Assembly: GCA_037447655.1 (NCBI GenBank)
Contig: JBBHKE010001598.1
Span: 52,262-108,096, forward strand
Reading direction: 5' to 3'
DNA length: 55,835 nucleotides
From: Zygnema cylindricum
Taxonomy: Eukaryota; Streptophyta; Zygnematophyceae; Zygnematales; Zygnemataceae
This document shows positions 1-55,835 of this stretch, in pieces. Both the position numbers and the translations under genes were made by a program. Position 1 is the first letter of the stretch, and each line of letters opens with the position of its first letter. The notes beneath the pieces were generated by a model. That model ran no database searches. It saw only the letters and a list, made by a program, of their open reading frames with translations, and had not been told where the DNA came from.

Positions 1-671
1 GAGTCTTTATAGGCGCAGTACTAAGGGTAGGTTTTTCGTAACGTTTTTAGTACCGGGTTTGAAAACTTCAGGCTCGTTGTTTCGGATATATAAAGTTTAA
101 GACGACGTTGACTAAAAGTGTTGTTTTGAGTCTGAAACTGCTCTCTGTATAGAAGTTAGAAGTTAACCAGCAACCGCTCCATGAGATACATCGTTTCCGA
201 CTCACTTTGTCCTTAAGGAGGTGGCACTGGTGAAACAAACTGGATGTTGAATAGCAACTGTCTATGAAAACGAACAAGTAGAACGGAGGTATATGGTATA
301 AATCAGGTTGAGAGAGGAATCAGCGACTTTCGTCAATAGTAATAAAGTTCGTACGTTTCGAGTTGGACTAAATATGGTATATGGAGGCAAGATGAACAAG
401 CAAAAGTATCTGTCAACGATAAGTTGTAGGTCAAACAAAGTGGTCACGGTGGAGGAATTCCTGTTTCACTCAGCCTTTGCTACATAGAGTACCTCGCCAA
501 CGACCAATTGAAGATTGAAGATATGTCTCTCGTCAAAGTCTGAGTTTTGTTGTGAAAATCAGTTGCAGCAGAATTTGAAATATATAGGCTTTGTTGCTCG
601 GACTTCAAAAGTTTGGGCCATGATTTTTGCAATGCTTTTTGGATGGGAATCATGACGCGGATATTTCTGAG
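1..671. repeat. Perfect 312-nt mirror repeat
   Basis: Bases 1-312 read left to right are identical to bases 671-360 read right to left on the same strand. Base i equals base 672-i throughout, which I checked line by line without finding a mismatch. The two arms flank a 47-nt centre (313-359) that is not mirrored. This is not an inverted repeat, because no complementing is involved. It is not a homopurine tract either, since base composition is mixed. Arm 1 begins at base 1, so the symmetry may continue outside the window. Ordinary antiparallel copying cannot produce such a structure, so an assembly or file-handling artefact is the leading explanation. Confidence 0.97.
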
Positions 672-1210
672 AGCCTAGTGCTGAAATCAAAAGGAAACAA
701 TTTGGAAAGATGGCATTAAACTACTTTTGGCAGAAATATGCTTGTAATCATGTGTTGAGGTACACATGTCATATTTATAAAGTTGACTTGTTGCCAAGCA
801 GGATGGCTGCGAAAATGACAAAGTATTGTTATGCAGAGTGTGTATGTTTGTCGTTTGGTGACAGACAGCATGTAAAATTGTATTGCCTTGTGTACCTAGT
901 AATTACTTGTTTTTTTTTATCTATATTTGATTTGTGTAGTTCCCACATTTGTTGGTCTTTGCATATAAATGCAACAGTCGTAAGTGTTTTGGGATGTGCG
1001 GATTCAACCTGTGATGTACATATCAACACATCAACAAGTGATACACGTCAGAGCAACAGGGCCCCAAATGACATCTCTATTCTGAAAACACTAACATCAT
1101 GCCAAATCCGTCAAATCTCGTGTTGGCTTGTGAGTATTTCAACCTCTCATGAAGTTCCAAACAAGTCCGGATGTACAAATTCGACAAGCAAACAATGACA
1201 ACACTCTATG
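672..1210. other. No recognisable feature
   Basis: Open for 162 codons on the plus strand (710-1198), but the translation is rich in Cys, Ser, Ile and Leu with no recognisable domain and no splice context. I see nothing else here. It lies between the mirror repeat and a Copia fragment and is probably decayed element sequence. Confidence 0.4.
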
Positions 1211-2002
1211 ACTAATGGTGACTTGGGTGAGGCTAAGTATATTCTAGGAATTCAGGTAGAAAGAGACAATAAACAAAAAAATATTTATTTAACTCAAAAA
1301 AAAACAATCAGGGACATGCTAGAAAGGTTTGGCATGTCAGAAGCTATGGGGAGTGCCAACCCTATAGAATTCACGTAGAAGTTGGAGGGTGCGGAAACGG
1401 ATGGTGGCGTTTTGGTTGATGATTTCTTGGATTCAGGGGAGACAGATTCTATGTCCTCCATTCCTTACAGGCAGATTGTCGGAAGCCTCATTTATTTCAT
1501 GAACTGTACTCGTCCGGACATCTCAGCGGCGGTTGGAGCTTTGAGCCGAAGCCTGCAAAATCCGAGGAAGTCGGACTATGAGGCAGCAAAGAGAGTTCTT
1601 CGTTATCTTGCAGTAACTCGAAATCTTAGACTCTCTCTCGGTGGAGAGGAAGTCAAAATTCATACATGGAGCGATGCGGGCTACGGAGATATGCCCAGCC
1701 GACGCTCCACCACTGGATACATTCTGAAGATCGTTAGTGGATCTTGATGCAGGAGCAGCAAACTTCAGAAGGTAAAAGCTCAGTCTACCATGGAGGCTGA
1801 GTACATGGCTGCCAACTCGGCAATTAAGGAGTTACTTTGGGTAAAGTCTCTCCTCCAAGAGCTTCTCTTTATACAATATGGACCTCAAATAGTGTGGTGT
1901 GTAGGCAGCCATAGCAATTGCATCTAATCCAAGCCATCACTTTAAGAGTAAGCACATTGACATCAAGTTGCACTTTGTGAGAGAAAAGGTGATGGGAAAA
2001 GT
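1211..2002 (+). pseudogene. Ty1/Copia reverse transcriptase tail plus RNase H fragment
   Basis: The translation carries the Copia RT thumb/connection signature (DLGEAKYILGIQVERD), then the YRQIVGSLIYFMNCTRPDI block, then RNase H signatures including MEAEYMAA. The domain belongs to the pol polyprotein and would degrade the RNA template during reverse transcription. It is broken by an in-frame TAG at 1376 and a TGA at 1745, and the frame is lost after about 1870. The upstream gag, protease and integrase are missing. At about 2003 it abuts an RT fragment on the opposite strand, so the two pieces were brought together by rearrangement or nested insertion. Confidence 0.9.
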
Positions 2003-2290
2003 CCTGAGAGCTGTTTTTATTTTATTAATCTCATTGATAGATTTGCTAATCAACAGCAAATCATCTACATACACTGCCACATAAATCACTCCATCCTCAC
2101 CTTGCATCATATAGATTGAGTGATCTAAACTGATCCTGGTAAAGCCAAGATTAGTTAAAAACTCATCTAATTTCAAGTTCCATTGTCTCGGAGCCTGTTT
2201 CAGACCATACAGGGATTTCAACAGTTTACATAACAGACTTTCTATCCCTTTTTCTGCATATATCTCTGGCTGCTTCATAAAGATGACTTC
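2003..2290 (-). pseudogene. Ty1/Copia reverse transcriptase palm fragment
   Basis: On the minus strand this encodes a Copia RT core: a LKSLYGLKQAPRQWN block followed by the intact catalytic YVDD box (AVYVDDLLLISKS). The fragment is open across the RT homology, but it has no start or end of its own. It stops at 2290, exactly where a Copia LTR begins at 2291, and at about 2003 it meets a plus-strand RNase H fragment. The reading frame running into the LTR is not meaningful. RT would synthesise the element cDNA; this isolated piece cannot. Confidence 0.9.
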
Positions 2291-3288
2291 TGTTGAAATT
2301 ACTAGTTTTATGTGGTATTTTCTTGGTTTGAATTTAGTACAAATTGAAAAAGGAAATAGGCGGACAGCCTGCCTCCGCCTCCTCTCTCTACCCACCATAC
2401 ATATCGTAGTCATTGAGGGATGGAGAGGGTGGCTGAGCCATGGCTGTCCTAGCTTAAGCAGGTTGGGCTAAAGAGTGACTTATCTCACTCTCAACAAAAG
2501 GTTGAGTCCGGCAGGACTCGAACCTCCGACCGGTAGAGCGCGGCTTAGCCGTTAGATGTAACCAGTTTGTCGTAGAAGTCTGTTAACATATGATAGGTTT
2601 GATATTTATTTAAAGAGTGTTACAAACATGAATTCGATTAACCGAATTGCGAACGAAAGAACATGGAACCAAGTACTATATAGTGCGAACATTATCTAGC
2701 ACGAAAACAAATGAATCGGACATTTGTTTTTACTGCGGACATTCAATATCGAATCTAATCCAACGGCGTACATCGATGCCGAGATCGCGGAATGGCGTTT
2801 ATGGACGTGGCATGACGTGGCGCCACGCGGAGGGATGGCATTTGGTCGCAAGAATTCCGACGAACATAAGGACAAGTGAAAAGTGGACACGCGTCCACTT
2901 AATGTCGTTGTCGTACATGGGCCGTACAGAAAGTACATCGGCCATAGTACTTTTTTGTACCCTACAGTGATATGATTGGTTCGTACTTCAATAGATAGGG
3001 GTTGTAAGATGGATTTAGGACTTAGAGAATTTGGTAGATAGGAACCTCTCTCCCTTTGAGAGTTTGTATAAACTTGGCATTTTTGCCGACTCATAACTTA
3101 TCGGCTTGTTGGTCGTTTTCAGTGATTCTTTTTGCTACGGACTCAGCGGAGTCTATGCTGCACGAGGGTGCAGTCAAATTGTCACTTTGCCCTTTTGTGC
3201 AACAGTGGTTGTGGCTTGAAGTGGGTTAGTTAAATACTATCTAGAGGCTTCCTATATTGTGTAGTCCAATGGAGGACACAGAATTGCA
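2291..3288 (+). repeat. Copia family A LTR (5' LTR, plus orientation)
   Basis: About 998 bp, starting TGTTGAAATT and ending TTGCA. Its ends are set by comparison with the solo LTR at 7234-8273, which has a target-site duplication, and with the LTRs at 6554-8632 and 14509-15500. It is immediately followed by a half-tRNA primer-binding site at 3289. The first third carries an antisense tRNA-like stretch. The conserved middle (about 2755-2935) aligns with 7040-7225. The annotated gag start codon at 3269 lies within the last 20 bp of this LTR. Confidence 0.85.
2497..2575 (-). other. tRNA-like 3' half inside the Copia LTR, antisense to the element
   Basis: Read on the minus strand, the stretch contains a B-box-like GGTTCGAGTCC, a T-stem with four of five pairs, and a 3' acceptor-like CCGGACTCA. 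There is no matching 5' acceptor strand upstream, so it is a partial tRNA relic rather than a gene. Counterparts lie in the same LTR position at about 6765-6850, 8003-8070 and 15205-15285, always antisense to their LTR. It may act as an internal Pol III promoter relic; that is inference. Confidence 0.6.
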
Positions 3289-4712
3289 GGTTATGGGCCC
3301 ACCCTCTAGGGTGCCCACCTTTAATGGATCTGGGTTCATCTATTGGGAAGCCATGATGATGGGAGGTTTGTGTGAAGAACGATACTGGGGTATCGTCAGT
3401 GGACAAGTGAAACGTCCACTTTTGGGAACTCCACCACGATTTGGAGAAGTAAGGTTTTTTACAGCAACGGTTACCTCAACGGAGGAGGCAGATGATGGGG
3501 ACAGCAGTGTGTCCGAAAAGGGAAAAGGGAAGGATACACCCCTCACTCCTATTGCCACAGTACCGGGATCGGCGACTGTGAAGACCACGGAGAACGATAC
3601 TCAAATGTGGGAGGATGTAAACATGGTTGCCAAGAACTTCATTCTCAGGCACCTCACTCAAGCTTTGGCCACTCCTCATCTTCACATTTACAAGGCCGAG
3701 GAATTGTGGGTGAGTTTGGTGGAGATTTATAGAGCTGGAACAATTCAGGAGCTCCAGTTGGCTGAGCAAAAGCTAGTGAGTTACACTTACAAAGGAGGAA
3801 AGATGTTAGATTACTGTAATGATCTTTCTTGTTTGTATATGGAGATGGAAAGTGCCGGATGGACAGGTACAATGAAAATGAAAGTTAACACTCTTATCAT
3901 GAAGTTACCAGATGAGTTCGAGAACATAGTGTATCGAGTACAAGAAATGCTTGATAGTTCATGGAAATGGAACACAGTGGTCAGGATGATACTTGTGCAG
4001 GAAAACACAATGGAGATTAGGAGAGGAGGAAAGAGCATTCAAGCTCTAGAAGCAGGAGGGGACCGATGGGGGAAGGACCCGAAGAAACCGTACAAAGGGG
4101 AAAGAGATCATCCTGGAGAACCGAGGCCCCCAAAGGGTCTTTGTCATTTTTTGCAAAAAACCGGGACACCTGATCGGAGATTGTGTCAAGCTATCGGAAC
4201 TGAGGCTCCAAGAGAACCGTGGAGGGGGTTCTTTTGGAGGGAAGAAAAAGGCACTTGCTGTTACAAAGGTGACAGGAGAAACCGAGGATGAATCCTCTGA
4301 AGAGGATGGGGAGCTTCTTCTTGACGAGAGTCTGGAGGAGAAGGAGATTCCTCGGAGACAGAAGTGTGCCCTTGGAGCAATTCGGAAAGCTCCACAGGAA
4401 GGATGGATTATGGACTCAGGTGCATCCATGCATATGTGTCGCGATAAAGAACTCTTCACTAAGTTAAGGAAAATCCCTACTGTAGAGATAGAGTATGGGG
4501 ATGGGAGAGTAGTTACTACAGATCTAGTAGGATTAGTAGATCTGAAAGTCTTAGTGGAGGGTAAGTCTTCTATACTTACATTCTTAGATGTACTTTACAT
4601 TCCTCAGCTGAGTAAATAGTTTGTCTCTACGTCTGTGTTAGATGACAAAGAGTTTGATACCTTCTCTCGAAAGGGAGTCTTTACAGCTAAGTATGGGGAT
4701 GAAGTTTACCAC
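3269..4712 (+). pseudogene. Copia family A gag-protease, frameshifted and truncated
   Basis: Gag starts at ATG 3269 or the in-frame ATG in the primer-binding site. The Gag body (about 3290-4060) has the plant Copia Gag look, with an LWVSLVEIY segment and an LPDEFENIV segment. A CCHC zinc knuckle follows at about 4137-4180. It is only complete after a one-base shift in the T run at about 4147, so an inserted T has broken the frame. The pepsin-type protease begins at about 4405, with the catalytic D-S-G in WIMDSGASMHMC. A stop at 4617 and loss of homology at about 4712 end it. Integrase and RT are absent because a DNA-transposon-like segment follows. It is close kin to the gag at 13043-14528. 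Confidence 0.9.
3289..3303 (+). promoter_or_regulatory. Half-tRNA primer-binding site (initiator Met anticodon loop)
   Basis: The 15 bases GGTTATGGGCCCACC follow the LTR end directly. They are the exact complement of the anticodon stem-loop segment of plant-type initiator tRNA-Met. Priming by a cleaved initiator tRNA half is the mechanism known for Drosophila copia and yeast Ty5. The ATG inside the site pairs with the CAU anticodon and also lies in the gag reading frame (V-M-G-P). Confidence 0.85.
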
Positions 4713-8881: not shown

Positions 8882-8895
8882 CTCCCCTTATTTTC
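8882..8895 (-). promoter_or_regulatory. Polypurine tract of the minus-strand Copia element
   Basis: Read on the minus strand, AAAATAAGGGGAG lies directly before the 3' LTR start (TGTAG). This is the position and composition expected for the plus-strand primer of reverse transcription. Confidence 0.75.
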
Positions 8896-10405
8896 TAGTC
8901 AATCTTTAATTTCAGACCGCACTTCTCCCTGCAGAAAATTAGTTTAGGGGAAGGCACAGGTTTGGTCATCATATCTGCTACCATCTCACTATCTGGTCGG
9001 TACTCTAAACTGATTATTTTGTTTTCTACTTTCTCTCTAACAAAGCTGAGACTAATGTCCATGTGCTTAGCTTTAAAATGATATTTAGGATTGGCAGAAA
9101 TAGCGATTAAAGCCTGATTATCACAAAAGAAAATTTGCACACCACTCTTAAGGTGACCAAGCTCACCAAGCAAAGATTTGACCCACATCAACTCTTTTAC
9201 AGCAGAGCAAGAGGCCATATACTCAGCCTCCATTATGGACTGAGCAATAACCTTTTGCTGTTTTCTACTACAACAGTAAGCCACATCACCCACATATAAT
9301 ACATATCCAGAAATACATCTCCTCATCGGAGCATCACCATAACTAGCATCACCCAAAGTAGTGATGTCAGTATTCTCCCCACCCAAATGCAACAATAGAT
9401 CCCTATTTCCTATCAAATATCTAAGGACTCTCTTAGCTGCCTCTTTCTTAGTGGGAGCATTTAGACTTATACTCAGCACTCCTTCAGCTGCAGCTAAAAC
9501 CTGCCGGGTAGATTTCATAAAATATATTAGGCTTCCCACTACTTGCATGTAAGGAATAGTCTGCATGAACTTCTGTTCTTCAAGAGATAATTTCTCGTCT
9601 AAGATTATGTCTCCTTCTTCCTCACTCCCCTCACTTCCCTTCTTTAACTCCATTGGAGTTGTACAACTATTAGTTTTATCCATTTGAAATTTTTCAAGCA
9701 TGTTCCCTATTGCTTCCTTTTGAGTCAATCTTATAATCTTTCTTTCTCGGTCTCTTTCTACTTCAATTCCCAAAATATATTTTGCTTCTCCCATATCTTT
9801 CATTTCAAATCTCCCTTTAAGATCTATTTTCAGCTTATTAAAGTTTTCATTGATTTACTTAAAACAAGCAAATCATCAACATAAATTACAATAAATATAA
9901 TACCATCCTCATCTTCAAAAACATAGATTGAATGATCTGAGCTGATCCGGATATATCCCAGACAGGTAAGAAACTCATCAAGTTTCTTATTCCATTGTCG
10001 AGTCGCTTGTTTCAAATCGTAAAGGGATTTAATCAGCCGGCATAACTTACTCTCTTCTCCTTCCTCCACAAATCCTTCGGGTTGTCGCATGAAGATCTCC
10101 TCTTCCAATTCTCCATGCAAAAGGTTGTCTTGATGTCCATCTGGTGCACCTCCATGTCTTCTGCTGCTACTAGGCTGAGAAGTATGCGGACGGAGGGAAA
10201 TCTGACAACCGGGGCAAAGGTTTCATCGTAGTTGATTCCTTCTTTCGGTGTAAATCCTTTTGCCACTAATCGGGCTTTGTAACGCTCAATGGTGTTATCC
10301 GGGTTCACTTTCAATTTGAAAACCCACTTACAACCGATTGGTTTTCGGTTAGGTGGACAATCCACTACCTCCCAAGTATCGGCTACCATAATTGAGGCCA
10401 TCTCC
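8895..10405 (-). pseudogene. Copia reverse transcriptase and RNase H (minus), frameshifted
   Basis: The N-terminal RT starts near 10401 with a CKWVFKLKVNPDNTIERYKARLVAKGF-type block, then KQATRQWNKKLDEF and the intact YVDD box near 9875. The frame shifts near 10120 and 9830. From 9803 to 8895 a 302-codon frame carries the KDMGEAKYILGIEVERD block, RNase H with EAEYMASCSAVKE and the C-terminal DMMTKP motif typical of Copia pol. This is the most intact module of the element. RT/RNase H convert element RNA to cDNA. Confidence 0.93.
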
Positions 10406-13055
10406 TCATTGATGGTTGTCTTCCACCGGTTCCTTTTCTAGGCAAGTCATCGCCTCTCCATAAGTTTGAGGTTCATCTTGATGAGATAGTTTTGTTACCT
10501 TGTTATTAACCTGTTTTTCTTGTAATCTTTTACTACTTCTCCTCCCTCCCTCAAAATCTGTGGCAGGAATAGATGGTTCTCGTGGGTTCTTTCGTACAAT
10601 CTCGGCTTCTCCCCTATCCCTTGATTGCGGATCAATTTCCATCACGTCTTTTGCTTCGGGTAGAGTTGTCACTGGAGTTTCTGCAGCCGAGTCTTTTTCG
10701 GTCTGATTTGTGCCTGCAAGAATGTCATCTTCTCTAACGCGTGGATAGTTAGGAAGTTCAAAGTCATCGGAATTTTTCTGACTCAAATCTAATTTTTACT
10801 GAATTTGTATACTTAAAGGGATCCACGGACTTTCCTTCATCCATAACTACTAGATGATTTACTAAGATTATATCTTCCCTTTTTAGATCATAAACTCTAT
10901 ATCGTTTAACATCCTCATCATATCCTAATAAGTATCCCGGTTTTCCTTTAAGATCTAGCTTCCAATTATACCGATCAGTATCTAGACTGAATATTTGACT
11001 GCCGAAAACCTTTAAGTGAGATATGTCTGGTTTCCGGTCTGTCCATCTCTCATAAGGTGTTTGATCTTTTATAGCTGAAGTAAGAACTCTATTTTTTAGG
11101 TAATTAGCACAGTTCATTGCTTCGGCCCAAAACCTTTTTCCTATCTTCTTGTCCGACAACATACTTCTTGCACTATCACTATGTGTCCTGTTTGATCTTT
11201 CAGCTACCCCATTCTATTCTGGGTTTTTTGGAACTGTCTTTTGTTGTTTTTGAAGATTTAGTTTTGTGCGTACGCGACGTTTCATGTGTACGTGAGGTTT
11301 CGTGCGTACTCGATGCGATTTGGAATGCGTGAGTACTAACTGAATTTAATTGGTGGAAACTCGAATGGATTTGCGGATAGGGAGAGTAATGGTAGGAATT
11401 GTTTTTAGGCGTACGGAATCAAATTTGAGTGACGCTAATCAAATTACGGAGAGTACGGTTTGCGTAATGTTAAATGGACGGCGGATCGCGAAGCGATCCG
11501 ATGTAATCGATTTTGAAATGTTTTTTTAAAAGTGTGTCGCCCGTACAAACATAATGTGAAAGGCGCACTTATGAAAAAGAAGCGGATTCGGTACGAAAAA
11601 GATTTGGAAAGTACGATTACATTTCGGCAAGTGGTTCGCGCTATTTTTGGATGTACTATCAAGTGGGTCGTACGTATGTGATGACGGGTTACTACGTGGA
11701 ATTATCGACAAGTGACTAAGCAAGTTGTCACTTATGACGCGGATATGTGGATGCGTCGGTGTAATTATTTGAAACATCAATATTATGTTTTATGCGAACG
11801 AATGATTTAGTGTTGATTAAAATAGTTATATTTTACGTGATTAATGAGGATATCGACACTTTAATTTATGTGTTGTTTTTACAGACAAGTGTACGCTTAC
11901 GATTGCTTGACTTTCAGCTGTACGCTTACGATTAATTTATTCTTAATAGTAGGTTATCATGCTTAAATAGGAGATAATGATAGTTACGTAATTTCCAGTC
12001 ACGATATTGTCGTAATAGGATATTATGTTTTAGTGGAAGTTATGTTGGATATTTTGACAGTTAGTGATTTGTTCACAGCTCACAAGTGTATATATTGCTA
12101 TGAACATTTATAGCAAATTCATAAATGCTTGTTAGAAAAGTAGGGACCAAAGTTGTAGTATTTTAGGGTTGTCGATTAGGTCATGCACTTTGACTGATAT
12201 AACGATTATTTGATTATACTTTTGTTTATGTGTGATGCGTTTGTTTGTTATTATTTATTTATGTTATTTTATATATGTTTGATATGCATTGTTTATGCAT
12301 TTGTCCTACGGTTTGTTTATGTCGATTATTCCATCAAACCTTAGATGTTGTCATAGGGTTTATTTATGTTTATTATTCCATAAAACCCTAAATGTTGTTT
12401 GTTGCGTCTGTGTACGCATATGGAGGATGCATTTCAAATGATTGTTGATTAGCCAAGCTTTGCTTAACTTATTGCATGATAGTTTGGGTTGCTTCTACGG
12501 TCTATTTTAGACTAAAGAACAACATCTTTTGGTGTTGGACTCCATCTTCCCTCAGAAAAAATCCTCAAACTGGTTAGAAGTATACTCTCCACCATTGTCA
12601 CTCCTTACTCTCTTGATTGGAGTTTCATGGAGTTTTTCGCTCCATGCTTTATATTGTCTAAAACAATCCTCAACTTCGGACTTGTTTTTCAAAAAATACA
12701 CCTTGGAATACCGAGACCAATCATCAGTGTTAGTCATCATAAATCTCTTCCCCCCTAGTGAGGTCACTTTAGCCGGTCCCCAAATATTTGTGTGTACTAA
12801 ATCTAGATTTTTTTCTCCCTTATAAGTGGCTGTTTTGGGAAAGGGTAATCTGTGTGCTTTTCCTTAAGCACATCCTCTACAATCACTTATATCATCACTC
12901 TCACTGAACTGAATCCCTTCCACCACTCCCATTTTTTTCATCTCTCTTAACTTATCTACAGTCACATGCCCAAGCCTCTTATGCCACATCATAATATCAT
13001 GAACACCAGCATAATAAAGTTTCTTTGTCTCATTACTTAAAATCAGCCTAAACAT
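10406..13055 (-). pseudogene. Copia integrase (minus), split by a solo LTR
   Basis: The GAG-pre-integrase HHCC-type segment lies at 13055-12864 (MMWHKRLGHV...CRGCA). The DDE core follows, with the first Asp in DDWSRY near 12725 and the second in RSDNGGEY near 12590. The solo LTR at 11242-12524 then interrupts. Homology resumes at 11241 (QKTVPKNPE) with NGVAERSNR, which holds the catalytic Glu, and NYLKNR. An acidic linker to RT covers 10786-10406. Stops interrupt at 12864 and at about 11217. Integrase would insert the cDNA into the host genome. Confidence 0.9.
11242..12524. repeat. Solo LTR of an unidentified family, 5-bp target duplication TCTTT
   Basis: 1283 bp with inverted ends TGTTGTT...AACAACA, flanked by TCTTT at 11237-11241 and 12525-12529. 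Excising it together with one duplication restores the integrase frame across the junction (G-V-Q-H-Q-K-T-V-P on the minus strand), which independently confirms the boundaries. No coding sequence inside. It contains a local palindrome GGATCGCGAAGCGATCC at about 11482-11498 and repeated (A)GGGTTTATTTATGT words near 12355. Family orientation cannot be set without an internal region. Confidence 0.93.
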
Positions 13056-14528
13056 CCCTTGGCTACCTTTCTCCCAATGAAATAGACCTCTTCCTCAAAA
13101 TTAACAGTAAAGACTCCTTCCCTAGTGCTAGTAAAAATTCCCTTATCATCTAATACAGATGTAGAGATGAGGTTTTTGTTCAGCTCTGAAATAAACAATA
13201 CATCGGAAAATGTTACTATAGATGTCTTTCCTTCTAACAACACTTTCAGATCTACCGATCCTACAAGAGTAGTAGTGACTATCCTCCCATCCCCGTACTC
13301 TATCTCTACGGTGGGAATCTTTCTTATCTTAGTGAACAGGTGCTTATCCTTACACATGTGCATGGAGGCACCTGAATCTACAATCCACCCTGCTTCACCT
13401 TTCAATCCACCGTAAGCACATTTCTGCCTTCGTGGAATTTCGACCTCGTTTTTCGCCTCCAACTCCTCATCCAATAGGAGCTCATCGTCCTCGTCCTCGG
13501 ATTCCGCCTCATGTACCTGTGTCACAAAGGCCTTTTTCTTTCCTCTCGGGGTTCCACCGGTCTGCCCCTCCTTTAACCGAAGCTCGGTTAGCTTAGTGCA
13601 CTCTGCCATATAGTGCCCCGGTTTCTTACAAAAATGACATAAACCTTTGGGAGCCCTTGGTCCTAACTCGTCGGTCTGATTTTTTTGCTCCCTCCCCCCA
13701 TAGTTTCCGACCAATTTCTGGGAATCCTTATTTCTCCAATCGGTCACGGCTGCCAAGGCTTGACCACTCTTTCCTCCCCTTCAGATCTCAATCGTATTCT
13801 CCCGAACGAGAATCATCCCTACCATTGAGTTCAATATCCACCTTGAGTCTCGCAAGTCCTGCACACGGTTGACTTTGTTCTCAAACTCATCGGGTAACTT
13901 CATCAGTAAACAGTTAACCTTTTTTTTTTCAATAAAATCTTTTCAAGCACCCTCTAGCTCCATAAAAAGTGTAGCAAGCTCATTGCAAAAATCCAACATC
14001 TTCCCCCCTTTATATACATTCTCTTTAAATTTTTGATCAGCCAACTGTTGTTGCTGAACCGTACCACTTCCGTACATCTCTATGAGAGCCATCCAAAGAT
14101 CGGAGGCCCTTTTTACCTGCAAATGAGGACATGCAAGCCCTTGAGTAAGATGGCAGAGAATGAATTGCTTTGCCCCCATATTGTTGAATTCTTAGGTATC
14201 ATTATCATTCTCCTCGTTCCTCGATACAGGTGACATATATGCTGAACTAGTTGCTATTGGTGAGGTTTTCTCCTTCTTCGTTGCTTTGTCTACCACCTTT
14301 TCTTCCTTTGTCTCCTCCGTTGAAGATTTTCCTTGTGAATTTGTTTCCTCCAAACCCTGGAGGGACTCCCAGACTTGATGGACGACCCACTCGTCCACTC
14401 ACTCTCCCCCAAAATCTTTTCTCGCATAGAGCTCCTATCATCATACTTTCCAAGTATATGAAGTGAGTTCCATTAAAGATGGGTACCCTAGAGGGTGGGC
14501 CCATAACCTGAAACTTTGAGACGTCCAT
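13043..14528 (-). pseudogene. Copia gag-protease (minus), several frameshifts
   Basis: Translation starts at ATG 14528 inside the 5' LTR and reads MDVSKFQVMGPPSRVP, where VMGP is encoded by the primer-binding site. The Gag body is broken by frameshifts near 14247, 14190 and 13943. A CCHC knuckle (CHFCKKPGHYMAEC) is intact near 13640-13600. An acidic stretch follows, then the protease with the catalytic D-S-G in WIVDSGASMHMC near 13380. The last frame ends at 13043, with GAG-pre-integrase continuing in another frame. The protein is clearly paralogous to the plus-strand copy at 3269-4712. Confidence 0.9.
14494..14508 (-). promoter_or_regulatory. Half-tRNA primer-binding site of the minus-strand Copia
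   Basis: On the minus strand GGTTATGGGCCCACC directly follows the LTR 3' end (TTTCA at 14509). It is the same 15-nt complement to the initiator tRNA-Met anticodon stem-loop as at 3289. Conservation of the site in two diverged elements supports function. Confidence 0.85.
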
Positions 14529-26619: not shown

Positions 26620-28240
26620 TTTGCGCTCAAGCTTGGTCTGACAGCAAACAAGCTTCAGGCTACAGCTACCCGCCTTCTTACTTCGACTGGGACCACGGAG
26701 CCGGTCCTCGGAATCACAAAGGACCCGCTCATCTTTCGGTTTCAGACAAGAACCGAAAATGAGTCCGTTGAAATTGCTGTCAGAGCATTAGTCACTAAAT
26801 GCGACGACTATGAGTGTTTGGTGGGTCAAGAAGTTGTATTCCGAATTGGCGGTGGTGTGGACATGCACGACCAAACATTTTCTTACCGATCGACATACTT
26901 TTTAGAGCGCAAAATTTGCCTCCCTCTCATTTCAGCCCGCCGACCTTTGCCCACTATGGCTGACTCGGCTACGGCTCTTCCCGCATTTTTGGGGAACTCC
27001 ATTGGGGAGGAAATTTTCCACTCTCTTTCAGCCGAAAAAATTAGACCGGATAGTTCTCCCTTACCCGAGCTCTTTGCGGAATCGGGTTTTCTTATCAATT
27101 CTCACACATTTGACAATATTTATGAGTCCGAATTATCTATTCCATTAACGACTATCCCTCCTATACCTACAGTTGCAACCGATCCTTCGGGTTTCCTTTC
27201 TATCAGTTGGAAGCCCGTACAGCTGAGTCCTCATACGGACGGGGTCGTTATTTTAGATCTATTCGCTGGGATCAGAACTTCACTATTGTCATGTTTACGA
27301 AATGGTCTCCTCATCCGTCACTACTATGCAGTAGAAATTGATGCATTAGCTAGAAAAGCACAATTGCACCACTGTAATCTCCTGCATTCACAGTATCCAC
27401 AGTTGTTTCCAAAGTCAGCCTTTTTACACATGCACAATGCTCTTCCACAAGATATCCGCATCCTTAGTAATCGTCATCTACGGGATGTCGAACCGATAGA
27501 CCTTGTTTTTGGGGGGTGGGAGTGTCGAGGCATGTCTCGGGCCAGCAAAGGTCTTGGTTTGGCGGATCCCCGTACCAAATTGTTTTTTGAGCTTTTGAGG
27601 GTCTTTCTTTTTCTTCAAACCATGGCCAAACTTGTCGGATACATTTTAGAGAACGTTGCAGCTTGTAATGATCCTCGGCCTACAGTTATGGCTGACTATA
27701 AGCATATAGAACACCTTATCGGACCCCTGCTAATTATTGATGCAGCTCGGCATGGGTTTTTGGCACATTGAGTTCGTTCCAAATGGACGAACCTAATCGA
27801 TGTTGGTCGTCTTGGTGAGGCAAATCTGTTTGTAAGACCTCCCACTACAGACATTATGACCGCTTTGCTTCCCTTTCACCAAGTCGAATCATGTTTCCAA
27901 ACTGACTACCCTCCGAATTACAGCATTAATGTACCTCGCCAGCCACTCAAGGTCCTTCCTACTTTAGTGTCTTACCCTAATTCCAATTAATACTCTCATA
28001 ACGGTCCAGGCATGCTTCGAAATAATGTCACTGGAGTGTTAGAGGAGCCTACGGCCACAGAACGGGAGCATCTAATGCATTTTAATCCAGGCACTACTAC
28101 GGCCTTCGGCCTTACGGATAGACACCGTTGCACTTTGTTGGGTAGGGTCATGGATCCTCAGTCTTTATCATTTGTCTTAGGTCTCGGCCTTACAGCTGGT
28201 CGCTACGCACAGAATCACCCCGTGCAACCAGCTGGGGGGG
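26620..28240 (+). pseudogene. Gypsy polyprotein part 1: protease end and DNMT3-like C5-methyltransferase
   Basis: Open from 26620 without a start codon. 26640-26930 resembles the C-terminal half of a retropepsin (YECLVGQEVVFRIGGG). A C5 cytosine methyltransferase follows. Motif I is near 27256 (DLFAGIRTSLL, usual second Gly now Arg). The catalytic Cys is at 27523 in GGWECRGMS, followed by KGLGLADPRTKLFFELLRV as in the DNMT3 class. ENV is near 27649, and motif X ends in LLGR near 28135. Stops at 27769 (TGA) and 27988 (TAA) and a frameshift at the G run near 28233-28242 disable it. By family it would transfer methyl groups to cytosine in DNA, possibly element cDNA. Confidence 0.88.
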
Positions 28241-31200
28241 GGAATATGGCGGCTCCTTCACGTCTTGTTTCCTCTCGCACCTCTCCTAGTCTCAAGGGAA
28301 ATCCATTTCAGATTTTTCTCTTCCTTTCTCTCACACCTGCGGTTAAGGACATCTCCATCTATGATTTCCTCAACCCCAGTCATATGTCTTGGGAAAGCCC
28401 GGCCTATACATTCGTTCAATCCACAATTACATCGTTTCTCGGTCCAGCACCGCACTGAACAGTTGCATTTCTGACGCGTAGCTGGCACCACTAGGTGAAC
28501 TGCCTGCAGCAGACCCCAATAAATTCGAGTTAGGCCACTCCCTTATTGCCGATGAGCAAATTGAATTTGCTCAAGCCATAGAGGCTTTCACCCTCAAGAG
28601 CCCTGAGACGCCCAAGTGGAAGTTCGGGTCCAGTATCACAAAGGCGGAACATGCACTATTAAGTGACACAGTCACCCATCATATAGATGCGTTTGCTTTC
28701 TCAATGAATGACCTTGGACGTCATTCTACTTACAAAATGTCAATCGACCATGAAGACGATCGACCTATCTTTAAGCCGAAACATCGTCTCTCCGAAATAG
28801 AATGGGAGATGGTGGACAAAAGGTACGCAGAATTGGAAGAAGCCGGTCTAATCTATCGGTCGGATTCCACCTTTGCCGCCCCCACAATCATGCCTAAGAA
28901 GAAAGATTCTGACGGAAATTTTACTGAGCGAAGAATGTGTGGGGACTATCGAGAGCTCAATGCTCAGACCGTTCAAGACCGCCACCCTATGCCTCTTGCG
29001 GAGGAAATATTTGACCATATAGGTGGTGCTAAGTTCTTTAGCATTCTTGACTTACGTCAAGGGTTTAGCCAGATTGAAATCGAGAAAAGAGATCGGCATA
29101 AAACTACATTTTGGGGCAGTGATGGTCAGTGGGAATGGGCAGTCATGCCTTTCGGTCTTAAGAACGCACCCGCTGTGTTTTAAAAACTCATGGATTCGGT
29201 GCTGGGTAGATGTAAATTTGCCCGGTAATACATCGATAACTCGATAATCGCTTCCGCCATGGTTGAGGAGCACGCTCGCCATATTGATTGAGTTCTCACC
29301 AAGTTAAAGAAGGTCGGGTTGAAGTGTCACCCAGCCAAGTGTACTTTCGGTGCGGAGGGAGTGCCCTATCTTGGCCATTTTATTTCGGCTGAGGGCATCA
29401 CCCCCTTGGAAGCTAAGGTAGAGGCGATCACCAAATTGCCAGCTCCCACCGATCTCACTTGTTTGAGGGCTTTCCTCGGACTAGCCAATTATTACCGTCG
29501 TTTTGTACTCAATTTTAGCACGATCGCTTCTCCTCTCAATGACCTTCTCAAAAAAGAAGTGCCTTTTGTTTGGGGACCCGCCCAAGTGGAAGCGTTTCAA
29601 AAATTGAAAACCGCACTTTCTAGCGCTCCCATTCTTTGACCTCCTAACCACAAGCTTCCCTTTTGCCTACAAACCGATTTCGGGAAGCCAGGCATTGCGG
29701 CTATTTTAACGCAAAGAGAGTTGAATGGAGAGGAATACGTAGTGGCATACGCCAGCCGGAGCAATAACCGAGCTGAATCTAATTACAGTAGTTACGAGGG
29801 TGAATGTCTCGCCGCGGTATGGGGTATTGTTCATTTTTGACATTATCTTTACGACATACCATTCACGCTCCTAACTGACCATCAAGCCCTTCATTGGTTG
29901 ATGTCCAACGATAAGCTCTCAAGGAAGCTTGCCCGATGGGCTTTAATTTTACAAGAGTACGACGTTGAGATCATCCATCGGCCCAATTTGTTAAGCTTGA
30001 ACGCCGACGGGATCTCCTGAAATCCACTACCTCGGACCACTAATATCGGTGTCCGGCAAGATTTCAACAAGGACAGGGTACTGGCCATGTCGGCTGGTTC
30101 CTATATCACTTACTGTCTCTCTTCTATCCCTCACCCTCGGCCGGCCACAGATCAGTGGTGTGATGGCCCATTGATCCTCTTCCTCTCCTCTCAAACCTTT
30201 CGGCCCGGTACTACCGCCGAGGAGGAAGACCGAGTAAAGAAACGAGCTAAAAATTATCTGTGGCTCGACGGATCTTTAGTTCGATTGCTGGCGGACAGCA
30301 GTCATCGGCATGTCCCCCGGCCAACCGAGCGCTTGTCCTTCATTGAGCAGATACATACCGAGCTTAACCATTATGGGACCAAGCGTACTTTGAACCTTGT
30401 ACAGGCACGCTATTGGTGGTCCGGAATGCAAGCGGAAGTGGTGGCCATTCTCCACAAATGCGCCACATGCGACCGGCTACGCACCTCTTTCTCTAATTGG
30501 CAGGTGTCTCTACAGCCATTGCGTATCAGAAGATTGTTTTATCGCTGGTCCGTGGATCTTGCCGGACCGTTTCCCTTATCTCGAAAGGGGAAACAATACA
30601 TCATGATAATGATTGAAAATTTTAGCAAATGGGTGGAGGTGGTCGCTTTTCCCCACAAGACCGCTAAATTGACCACCGCTGCTTTTAAAGAGCACGTTCT
30701 CATGCGTTACCGAGCTCTTGCGTAGGTTCTCAAGGACCAAGGTACGGAGTTCTGAGGGGAATTTCAAGAGATGTTGGATGAAGCATTAATTGATCATCGC
30801 CGGAGGAGTCGTGATCACCCACAATCTGATGGCTAGGCGAAACGAGCTGTCCAGACTTTTAAGCGGGCTCTCCGAAAGCATTCTTTCGAGAAACACATCT
30901 TCGTCTGGGACGAATCCTTAGGCTATATCACCATGGGATACCTGATGTCCGTACAGCCTAGTTTGGCTAATTTCAGCCCGTACTATATTCTTTTCGGTCG
31001 AGCACCCTTGCTCGGTCGGAATATTCAAAAAACAGCAAGTTTACCTTTGCCTCTAATGTCTAATACCCTTTTCTTGGAAGAACTAACTCGTCGTGCTTTG
31101 TTTATCGCTCGTGAGATGCCCATGGCTTTTGATAATTTGCAGATTGCCCATCATCGGGATACTTTGCACTTTGTCACCACGCGAAGTGGCAGTTACAAGC

Positions 31201-31625
31201 CTCAACATAAATCTTATAGGGTCGGAGATTACATGTACCTCCGACGACAATCTTTCGACACTTTGGACACGGATGTTTCACCACACATTCTTCGTGTGGT
31301 GAAAATGGATGCTAATGGGATGTTGGGTTTGCAGGGTGCGGATACAAGGATAATTCGAGAGCATTCAAAAAATTGTGCACCTTTCTACTTATCGGATAAG
31401 TCACAGGATATGGATCCGTTGAGGATGCCAATCACAGAGGCTACAGAATGTACCATTTGCAGGCGAGCTGACGGCGAGGCTTCCATGCTCTTGTGCGACC
31501 ATTGTAACCAAGGGTTCCACATGGAGTGCTTAGTTCCTCCATTGACGATTGTGCTAGCTGGCCACTGGTTTTCCCATGGCTGTCGTGAGATGCTGGCGGT
31601 TTTGACCAGCTCCTCCGCAGGCTAA
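28241..31625 (+). pseudogene. Gypsy polyprotein part 2: RT, RNase H, integrase and C-terminal PHD finger
   Basis: One continuous frame from about 28480 to the TAA at 31623. RT spans about 28620-29400, with MCGDYRELNAQTV and a catalytic box reading YIDN at 29229 instead of YIDD. RNase H is at about 29640-30020. Integrase has an HHCC zinc motif at about 30349-30470 and DDE positions near 30553, 30732 and 30840, where the expected Glu is Lys. A PHD finger lies at about 31447-31600: CTIC, CDHC, H-x2-C, and a final GC with the seventh ligand as Ser. Ten premature stops interrupt the frame (28479, 29181, 29226, 29289, 29637, 29838, 30018, 30723, 30753, 30834). The order RT-RH-INT makes it Ty3/Gypsy. 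Confidence 0.92.
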
Positions 31626-46522: not shown

Positions 46523-47671
46523 CGTACTAAATGTGTTGACGCCATTCACTTCACGAGAGTGAGAGAAAAACGAAATACATTTTATATACGTAATTTTTTG
46601 TTAAGTGTAAGCCATACTAATTATCAGAGATGATATTCCACACTAAATCTGGTGTCAGGTTCGAAGGTCATTTAAATTCCACACCAATCCATGTTTTGTG
46701 CAAAACCTCCCCTTATTTTTTTGTAAGTTTTTGTTTTTGTTCACTTTAAAAGAAACCGGAAAGAAGTTTAGTTCCCAACTTTTAGATTTAGAGTAGGTCG
46801 GGCTAATCACGGTAAGCAGTGAATCTTTTTCGCAATTTTCTTTTTCCTTTCTTTTCTTTCCTTTTTTTGATTTTGGTATGTGTAGAATACGGAGTTCACA
46901 AATTTTAGAAGCGGAATCGATGACGTCAGCTCTGAAGAAGATGATGTCAGCGAGGTCAGCGATCTCGGAAGTTTCGAAAGTCTTAATCCAAGCGAATGGG
47001 AATGGGATTCCAATGAAAAATGGACAGAAAAACCCGATTATTCGGCAGAAGTTTTGAAAATCGGAGAATTAAAAATTTCTGATTCGAACACTGACACTCA
47101 ACACATGCAAAAAGTTCCGTTTCCGTTAAAGCCGACAGTGGAACCAGAAACGTCAGAAAATAAATCTATTTTTGAAAAAGCATCTATTTTTTCGTCTATC
47201 GAACAAAAAAGTAAATTGGAAATGAGTCAAGTTTTTTTGGAAAAGGGAGAAAATGAAAAAAACGTCGAAGATGAACTCGATGCACTTTTGGAAATGGAAA
47301 ATTCCGATTCTTTTCAAGGTCGAGATTTTGTTGATAAGGGAAAACAAGTTTTGGGATCGACAAGCAATTTTGCTCTCACGGATGTAAAAAAAGGAGAAAA
47401 AGAAAAAAGTGTCGAGGATGAGCTTGACGAGCTTTTGGGAGTCGAAGGTTCCGATTCTTTTCCGGACCGAGGATTTGTCGATAAGGGAAAGCAAGTAGTG
47501 GGCTCGACAAGTAATTTTGTTTTTCCGAATGTGACTAATGGTATTAAGTTCGATAATAAAAATGTTGTCGTGGGAAAAGTTTCAAAAGATGGAGCGAACG
47601 AGAAGAAAGGAAATTCGGTTTCTACTTCGGAAGACGATTTTGATGCATGGCTCGACTCCGTAATTGTTTGA
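43810..47671 (+). CDS. Aven-like cell-death regulator, copy 1 (five exons)
   Basis: Exons: 43810-43916, 45061-45239, 45818-45921, 46329-46433 and 46886-47671. All introns are GT-AG and phases join cleanly to give 426 residues. Residues 1-36 are basic and include an RGG-type stretch. Residues 60-78 are an acidic, Gly/Glu-rich segment. YEALLSEFHAG, residues 96-130 (with EDWSFSD) and residues 131-165 (LDLEALASNLSSLSLSSRL) follow the order of animal Aven (DFxxLLSS, FRFAEEKEW, DSELLVRALQELPLCLRL). Exon 5 has two 49-residue repeats, each with an ELDxLL motif (295-300, 344-349), and ends DFDAWLDSV, like the Aven C-terminus. Aven restrains apoptosome formation and binds G-quadruplex mRNA in animals; function here is inferred. 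Intron 4 carries a (CT)n run at 46470-46518. Confidence 0.8.
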
Positions 47672-47990: not shown

Positions 47991-49299
47991 CATGTAATAT
48001 GACAAGCAGATGATTTGCAATCATAATAGAGTCGAAACCCAGGAAAATCTGGTGTCATTTTTTTTTTATTTTTTTTTTAAGGCAGTTTTTTTAAAGGTGA
48101 ATAATTGGTTCTCAACGTCAGAAGATACTTTTTGTCAGTATTGTCGACTCTTACCGGAAGGAATTAACAAAAACAAATGAGATACGATTTTTCCAAATGA
48201 GTTATGTATTGTTTTTTTTTATGGAGTTTTTTGAATGGGTTTTTGTATTTTTGGTTACATTATGGATTTTCTGATGTTTGAACGACTATTAGGGAGAGGG
48301 AGAGGGAGAGGGAGAGAGGGAGAGANNNNNNNNNNACTTGTCCTCGGATGCACCAAGGTTAGCTTTATCGTGTGCATACGCCATCAACTGAACGACTGTG
48401 TTGGACTATCTCTTCACTAGTTTAATAACGATTGTAATTTTCAAATGTACGCTAATAATCGCATCGGACTACCTCTTCTCGGCTTTACGAGGACGAAAAA
48501 AAACTTCAATTAAATGTACACCTTGAGTGCATTACAACGTTTTTACTCTACAATACATTTGTAAAACAAGCCTTTGTAAGAACAATACGCATTGTGATAA
48601 AAAGTTCCTGTAGTAATTTCACCAATTGTGTTTTACAGCAGAAAGCTACAATCGCAATTAAGACAAAATTACAATTATTGTGATTGAATACTAAAACCCG
48701 TTATTAACATTAAAACAGAATTAACGCTAACATCGAAAGACGACATTTTGTGTTAACCACTTTAATGATGTCCTTGAAAAATAGTGTTACGCATAACAAG
48801 AATGTTTCCGAACAAAATGTTTACATAACATCTCATTTTTGCAACATTACGTGAGTTCCACATGTAAATTAACTTCAAAAAAAAGCAGGAGCATTTCGGC
48901 TCTTCTCCATCAGGCTACGCTAATAATCGCATGTAAACTTTTAATGTTAGCAATAATTTGATCACTTCTCTATCAGGTTGTGTCAGCAAGTCAACTACCG
49001 CATACGTGTGCTATTTCGATTGGAACCACGTAGGCTCCTGTTCAAATTACGAGAATTGTCCAAGATTTTAAAAGCACAAAATCTGACCGGCATAAATGGG
49101 CGGACGAACAAAATTTAAGATTTGTAGAAAAGTATTAAATTCTAAAATCAGTCCGTGCGTACTTCATCACTGTTCAAATTGCACCATTATGTTTTAAACG
49201 CAAAGTACATTCCTCGAAGGCCTATATCTAAGCAAATAATAGTGGTCGTCTGTTTGCACATCTTTTATAGTAGGCCTAGTCTGCCGTCTACGTATATAT
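47991..49299. other. Non-coding spacer between gene copies
   Basis: AT-rich with no domain-bearing ORF. It includes the assembly gap and several CGCTAATAATCGCAT words. No RNA gene seen. Confidence 0.4.
48326..48335. other. Assembly gap (10 N)
   Basis: Ten undetermined bases directly follow a GGGAGA run (48291-48325). The gap is presumably a repeat-induced break of unknown real size. Confidence 0.99.
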
Positions 49300-49811: not shown

Positions 49812-49883
49812 GAGCTGGTGGCACAGTGGTAGTGCGTTCGCAGCTTGAGTGAAAGGTCCCAGGTTCAAATCCTGGCCGGCTCA
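49812..49883 (+). other. tRNA-like cloverleaf in the 5' LTR of the TRIM
   Basis: 72 nt. The acceptor stem pairs 7/7 with one G-U. The D stem GCAC/GTGC, T stem CCAGG/CCTGG and anticodon stem (one G-U) all pair. The A box is TGGCACAGTGGTAGTGCG and the B box GGTTCAAATCC. The anticodon position reads CTT (Lys) but position 33 is G instead of the invariant U. No CCA is encoded. Likely tRNA-derived (Lys-like loop) and not a working tRNA; internal Pol III promoter activity is plausible. Confidence 0.85.
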
Positions 49884-50100: not shown

Positions 50101-50172
50101 GAGCTGGTGGCACAGTGGTAGTGCGTTCGCAGCTTAAGTGAAAGGTCCCAGGTTCAAGTCCTGGCCGGCTCA
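50101..50172 (+). other. tRNA-like cloverleaf in the 3' LTR of the TRIM
   Basis: Same 72-nt fold as in the 5' LTR with two differences (loop GCTTAAG versus GCTTGAG, B box GGTTCAAGTCC). Its loop AGCTTAA is closer to a tRNA-Lys(CUU) loop. All stems remain paired, so the two LTR copies diverged without losing the fold. Confidence 0.85.
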
Positions 50173-54878: not shown

Positions 54879-55835
54879 CGTACTAAGTGTGTTGACGTCA
54901 TTCACTTCACGAGAGTGAGAGAAAAACGAAATACATTTTATATACTTAATTTTTTGTTAAGTGTGAGCCATACTAATTATCAGAGATGATATTCCACACT
55001 AAATCTGGTGTCAAGTTCGAAGGTCATTTGAATTCCACACCAATCCATGTTTTGTGCAAAACCTCCCCTTATTTTTTTGTAAGTTTTTGTTTTTGTTCAC
55101 TTTAAAAGAAACCAGAAAGAAGTTTAGTTCCCACCTTTTAGATTTAGAGTAGGTCGGGCTAATCACGGTAAGCAGTGAAAATTTTTCGCAATTTTCTCAT
55201 CACTTGTTTTTTTCCTTTCTTTTCTTTCCTTTTTTTGATTTTGGTATGTGTAGAATACGGAGTTCACAAATTTTAGAAGCGGAATCGATGACGTCAGCTC
55301 TGAAAAAGATGATGTCAGCGAGATCAGCGATCTCGGAAGTTTTGAAAGTCTTAATCCAAGCGAATGGGAATGGGATTCCGAAGATAAATGGACAGAAAAA
55401 CTCGATTATTCAGCAGAAGTTTTGAAAATCGGAGAATTAAAAATTTCTGATTCGAACACTGACACTCAACACATGCAAAAAGTTCCGTTTCCGTTAAAGC
55501 CGACAGTGGAACCAGAAACGTCAGAAAATAAATATATTTTTGAAAAAGCATCTACTTTTTCGTCTATCGAACAAAAAAGTAAATTGGAAATGAGTGAAGT
55601 TTTTTTGGAAAAAGGAGAAAATGAAAAAAACATCGAAGATGAACTCGATGCACTATTGGAATTGAAAAATTCTGATTCTTTTCAAGGTCGAGATTTTGTT
55701 GATAAGGGAAAACAAGTTTTGGGATCGACAAGCAATTTTGCTCTCACGGATGTAAAAAAAGGAGAAAAAGAAAAAAGTGTCGAGGATGAGCTTGACGAGC
55801 TTTTGGGAGTCGAAGGTTCCGGTACTTTTCCGGAC
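52183..55835 (+). CDS. Aven-like cell-death regulator, copy 2 (partial, runs off window)
   Basis: Exons: 52183-52289, 53402-53571, 54150-54253, 54663-54767 and 55254 onward. All splice sites are conserved with copy 1 and phases are the same. Exon 2 is 9 nt shorter (three residues lost in the acidic Gly/Glu stretch). Introns align throughout with copy 1. Substitutions in exons are few and mostly conservative, and no stop or frameshift is seen up to 55835, so both copies look intact. The window ends inside the second 49-residue repeat of exon 5, so the C-terminal WLDSV-type motif cannot be checked. Intron 4 contains a (CT)n run at 54823-54874. Tandem orientation and 8.37-kb spacing indicate duplication. 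Confidence 0.8.

Follow-up and report, generated by a model that had tools for sequence, protein, structure and literature searches.

The stretch of DNA analysed here, to which we refer as the window, comprises 55,835 nucleotides of the zygnematophyte alga Zygnema cylindricum and corresponds to positions 52262-108096 of scaffold C1197 in an assembly of 352.8 Mb in 2,689 contigs. Pieces of Ty1/copia-type retrotransposons lie at 1208-4291 and 8895-13756, with Pfam matches to Retrotran_gag_2 at 3257-4291 (+ strand) and to RVT_2 at 8895-9803 (- strand); the other open reading frames (ORFs) in these regions are copia-like by eye only, and those at 1208-1378 and 1382-1747 have no Pfam match. The copia-type protein encoded at 8895-9803 has 225 relatives; among the 120 matches listed, identity does not exceed 42%, and plants predominate among the named organisms, which also include some oomycetes and two insects. 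An ORF at 26818-27771 (+ strand) matches C-5 cytosine DNA methylases (E = 1.1e-6), and downstream of it, within 26818-31625 (+ strand), lie Ty3/gypsy-like remains, namely an RVT_1 domain match at 28704-29183, an Integrase_H2C2 match together with a sub-threshold rve match at 30087-30725 and a PHD finger at 30933-31625, all on the + strand. By its position, the methylase ORF is a candidate part of this Ty3/gypsy-like element; retrotransposons carrying DNA methyltransferase genes have been reported in dinoflagellates and charophytes (PMC5890265).

The right-hand part of the window contains two genes for tRNA-Lys (CTT) at 49812-49883 and 50101-50172, both on the + strand and with starts 289 nt apart, as well as a protein encoded at 47054-47671 that lacks homologues at E 0.001. 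The window's final 935 nt (54901-55835), which run up to a gap of 2,500 N, are 95.8% identical to 46545-47467; the two copies flank a gap of 10 N and either arose by tandem duplication or are two alleles placed one after the other.

At its left end, the window begins with a perfect mirror repeat, described previously from the letters alone, in which base i equals base 672-i at 312 of 312 positions by direct count. Arm 1 (1-312) starts right after a scaffold gap and is arm 2 (360-671, + strand) written back to front and uncomplemented, and the centre between them (313-359) measures 47 nt. The preliminary description had also advised inspecting the bases to the left, and there the symmetry stops exactly at base 1 of the window, the preceding base being the last of a run of 5,154 N (C1197:47108-52261). 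What the first reading missed is that the same window holds a second and longer mirror, which emerged from a mirror-word scan of the window. It pairs arm 1 at 48336-48680 with arm 2 at 48700-49044 (+ strand), a perfect 345-nt match under reversal without complementing, around a 19-nt centre (48681-48699). This mirror, too, immediately follows an N run, the 10-N scaffold gap at 48326-48335. In both mirrors, the arms are 100% identical to each other.

Neither mirror is a product of chance: in 20 first-order Markov sequences of 55,835 nt each, the longest mirror word between any two places was 15-21 nt, compared with 312 and 345 nt here. When simple repeats were filtered out, the next-longest mirrors in the window and approximately 10 kb leftward of it (half of which is N) measured 22 and 20 nt. 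An unfiltered scan of the window returns trivial mirror words of up to ~49 nt in TC dinucleotide tracts, whereas the arms of the two large mirrors are mixed in composition. No further mirror of at least 24 nt was found in the whole of scaffold C1197 (165,966 nt) or in positions 1-70000 of scaffold C2127, in a scan from which simple repeats, frequent words and distances above 20 kb were excluded.

Two known kinds of symmetric DNA were considered and rejected. Homopurine-homopyrimidine mirror repeats form H-DNA (PMC13404959, PMC9171763), and the present repeats share with them mirror symmetry within a single strand. Arm 1 of the first mirror, however, is 54% purine, and the longest homopurine or homopyrimidine run is 7 nt in the arms of the first mirror and 9 nt in those of the second, so that the arms are of mixed composition and H-DNA does not apply. 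An inverted repeat, or palindrome, is likewise rejected for the first mirror, where none of the 312 positions match under inverted-complement pairing and the arms are thus not reverse complements of each other. Fold-back, or palindromic, chimeric reads produce inverted complementary repeats; such reads resemble our case in creating an artefactual symmetry next to a junction, but differ from it in that the first mirror has 0/312 inverted-complement matches.

The question of which part of each mirror is written the wrong way was addressed through homologous loci. Positions 1-359 as written, searched against the whole 352.8-Mb assembly, match only themselves (1 candidate, 1 scored), a result that is not in itself proof of uniqueness, as the search passes over simple repeats and very common words. 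The preliminary description had proposed searching the genome with the reversed arm 1, and this search, carried out with the spacer included, gave an outcome that favours an artefact. The uncomplemented reversal of 1-359 matches arm 2 (query 48-359) and, genome-wide, C2127:310310-310668, with which all 359 positions, the 47-nt centre among them, align at 91%. In a local comparison, the same piece aligns at 90.8% across 1-359 with L005:4811-5169, which is the same place on C2127. The right flank matches this locus as written: positions 360-786 align with L005:4858-5282 at 90.7%, and a genome search with 360-1200 returned C2127:310357-310781 at 91%. Since the reversed 1-359 and the unreversed 360-786 match the same C2127 locus, the whole of 1-359, centre included, most likely stands back to front, and, as judged from these alignments, the true order would be the reversed 313-359 followed by 360 onward. 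Of the two origins offered in the preliminary description, our searches therefore support the one in which a stretch of the assembly is reversed and left uncomplemented. Its suggestion that arm 1 is the reversed copy held insofar as arm 1 lies on the wrong side, but not as regards a freestanding copy, since the reversed unit extends through the centre.

The second mirror follows the same pattern. The uncomplemented reversal of 48336-48699, centre included, matches C2415:7518-7879 at 87% over query positions 1-364 in the genome-wide search, and 38 further places match partially, at 73-79% and mostly over query 1-195. These come from 40 scored of 540 candidates, all 40 of which match: arm 2 of the window itself, C2415 and the 38 others. 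As many as 34 of the 40 scored matches begin at query 1-3 and thus take in the reversed 19-nt centre wholly or almost wholly; the remaining 6 comprise arm 2 of the window itself and five that start at 218-222. Hence, beside its own arm 2, each reversed piece has a full-length homologue at one place, on C2127 for the first mirror and, with 40 of 540 candidates scored, on C2415 for the second. Six loci were compared locally with the window (L002, L005, L028, L030, L031 and L032), representing four distinct places, as L002, L005 and L028 overlap at one place on C2127. In these six loci, neither 1-359 nor 48336-48699 has a match as written at E 1e-4; for the second mirror, the lack of a match as written refers to these six loci, whereas for the first it refers to the genome-wide search. 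Once reversed, both stretches are collinear with their flanks in this comparison, with register offsets of 47 and 19 nt. The reversed piece of the second mirror corresponds to L030:1501-1862, in register with the flank 48700-49205, which matches L030:1520-2023 at 84.6%. No mirror of at least 24 nt occurs in L005, L028, L030, L031 or L032.

These alignments bear directly on the converse assignment, in which arm 1 would be correct and the reversed part would consist of arm 2 and its right flank. Over both strands, the longest stop-free frame of the first mirror is indeed in arm 1 (80 codons, against 63 in arm 2), and, in the second mirror, a composition model of 5-mers trained on the window very slightly favours arm 1 (+0.9). 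On the + strand only, by contrast, the longer frame is in arm 2 (47 versus 32 codons). The preliminary description had based its choice of arm 1 as the reversed copy on a longer protein-like frame in arm 2, a statement that is accurate for the + strand and fails when both strands are counted. In the first mirror, the composition model favours the reversed reading of arm 1, with a difference of -6.9; among 135 other stretches, most of them from the training region, it favoured the written reading in 126, and among 18 held-out ones in 16. In the second mirror, it does not discriminate, giving -0.5 for the whole stretch 48336-48699 beside the value for arm 1. Arm 1 is, moreover, the side that touches the gap, and for the first mirror a wrong arm 2 is contradicted by the self-only search with 1-359 as written, by the genome-wide match of the reversed 1-359 and by the match of arm 2, through position 786, to C2127 as written. 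We consider this assignment very improbable.

Five gaps were surveyed, three in C1197 and two in C2127:1-70000. Mirrors occur at 2 of the 5 right gap edges and at none of the 5 left edges; both begin at the first base after the N run, and the other three gaps have no mirror. No direct duplication, such as would stem from an extension left unmerged but correctly oriented, was detected at four of the five gaps, with both edges inspected over 1,500 nt per side; the edges of the 10-N gap have only direct repeats of 39-153 nt with 76-92% identity over the same span. CT- or GA-rich simple repeats lie at one or more edges of four of the five gaps (starting at 47108 and 100587 in C1197, and at 10099 and 47420 in C2127), and in both gaps that bear mirrors, simple sequence of this kind forms the left edge. 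Such edges are a likely reason for the breaks in the assembly, and may be so for these two gaps.

A true chromosomal mirror duplication would have had to occur twice, each time beside sequence that resists assembly, and by a copying of strands in parallel orientation. The exactness of the symmetry over 312 and 345 nt, far beyond chance, is what speaks for it. Against it, both cases start precisely at an N gap, the homologous loci scanned show nothing of the kind, and the centres are themselves reversed genomic sequence, so that the duplication would have had to include the normal neighbour sequence of arm 2. We regard such an event as exceedingly unlikely.

Our preferred reading, to which we give a probability of roughly 97%, is that the mirrors are an assembly artefact arising at the edges of scaffold gaps and do not represent a true biological feature; they are real in the assembly file and very probably absent from the genome. 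At both sites, the order in the file is that of an extension plus flank, reversed, followed by the flank, the overlap with the correct flank being 312 and 345 nt. Each piece (359 and 364 nt), which reaches from the gap edge through the centre, looks like ordinary genome sequence that has been reversed and left uncomplemented. We propose that a gap-extension or gap-closing step would start from the right flank as read on the opposite strand, lengthen it into the gap by 47 new bases in the first mirror or 19 in the second, and return the product with just half of the reverse-complement operation carried out. The overlap with the flank would then go unrecognised, and, as a result, the entire piece would be placed in front of the flank rather than merged with it. 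On the real chromosome, a short extension should accordingly be followed once by the flank, with no mirror. Because only an extension to the left needs strand conversion, an error of this kind would affect right edges only; the restriction observed fits such an error, although five gaps amount to an indication and not a demonstration. Given the three mirror-free gaps, such a slip occurs only conditionally. That the two pieces are similar in length (359 and 364 nt) could stem from the length of a read or a mini-contig.

The same reversal might instead have been introduced after assembly, when files were converted or in the genome copy as stored, and it is in that stored copy only that the mirrors were observed. 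We think this hardly credible, because the pieces end exactly at gap edges, have similar lengths and overlap the flank, as a product of extension would, and because a file error has no reason to duplicate flank sequence.

Software for gap filling and contig extension is known to produce a class of misassemblies at gap edges. The artefact proposed here resembles this class in that the wrong sequence is confined to the gap edge, overlaps the flank and is left unmerged, and differs from it in that the piece is reversed without complementing. We found no description of such an error in the titles and opening lines of abstracts of open-access papers, which is not proof of its being undescribed.

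Collectively, these results indicate that this assembly, and perhaps others produced by the same pipeline, includes short stretches beside gaps that are written back to front. As little or nothing matches them, they tend to escape ordinary alignment, and they can give rise to sequence that falsely appears unique, to spurious open reading frames and to spurious "novel" repeats. Such stretches would be found and flagged by searching for perfect mirrors longer than 50 nt that abut N runs.
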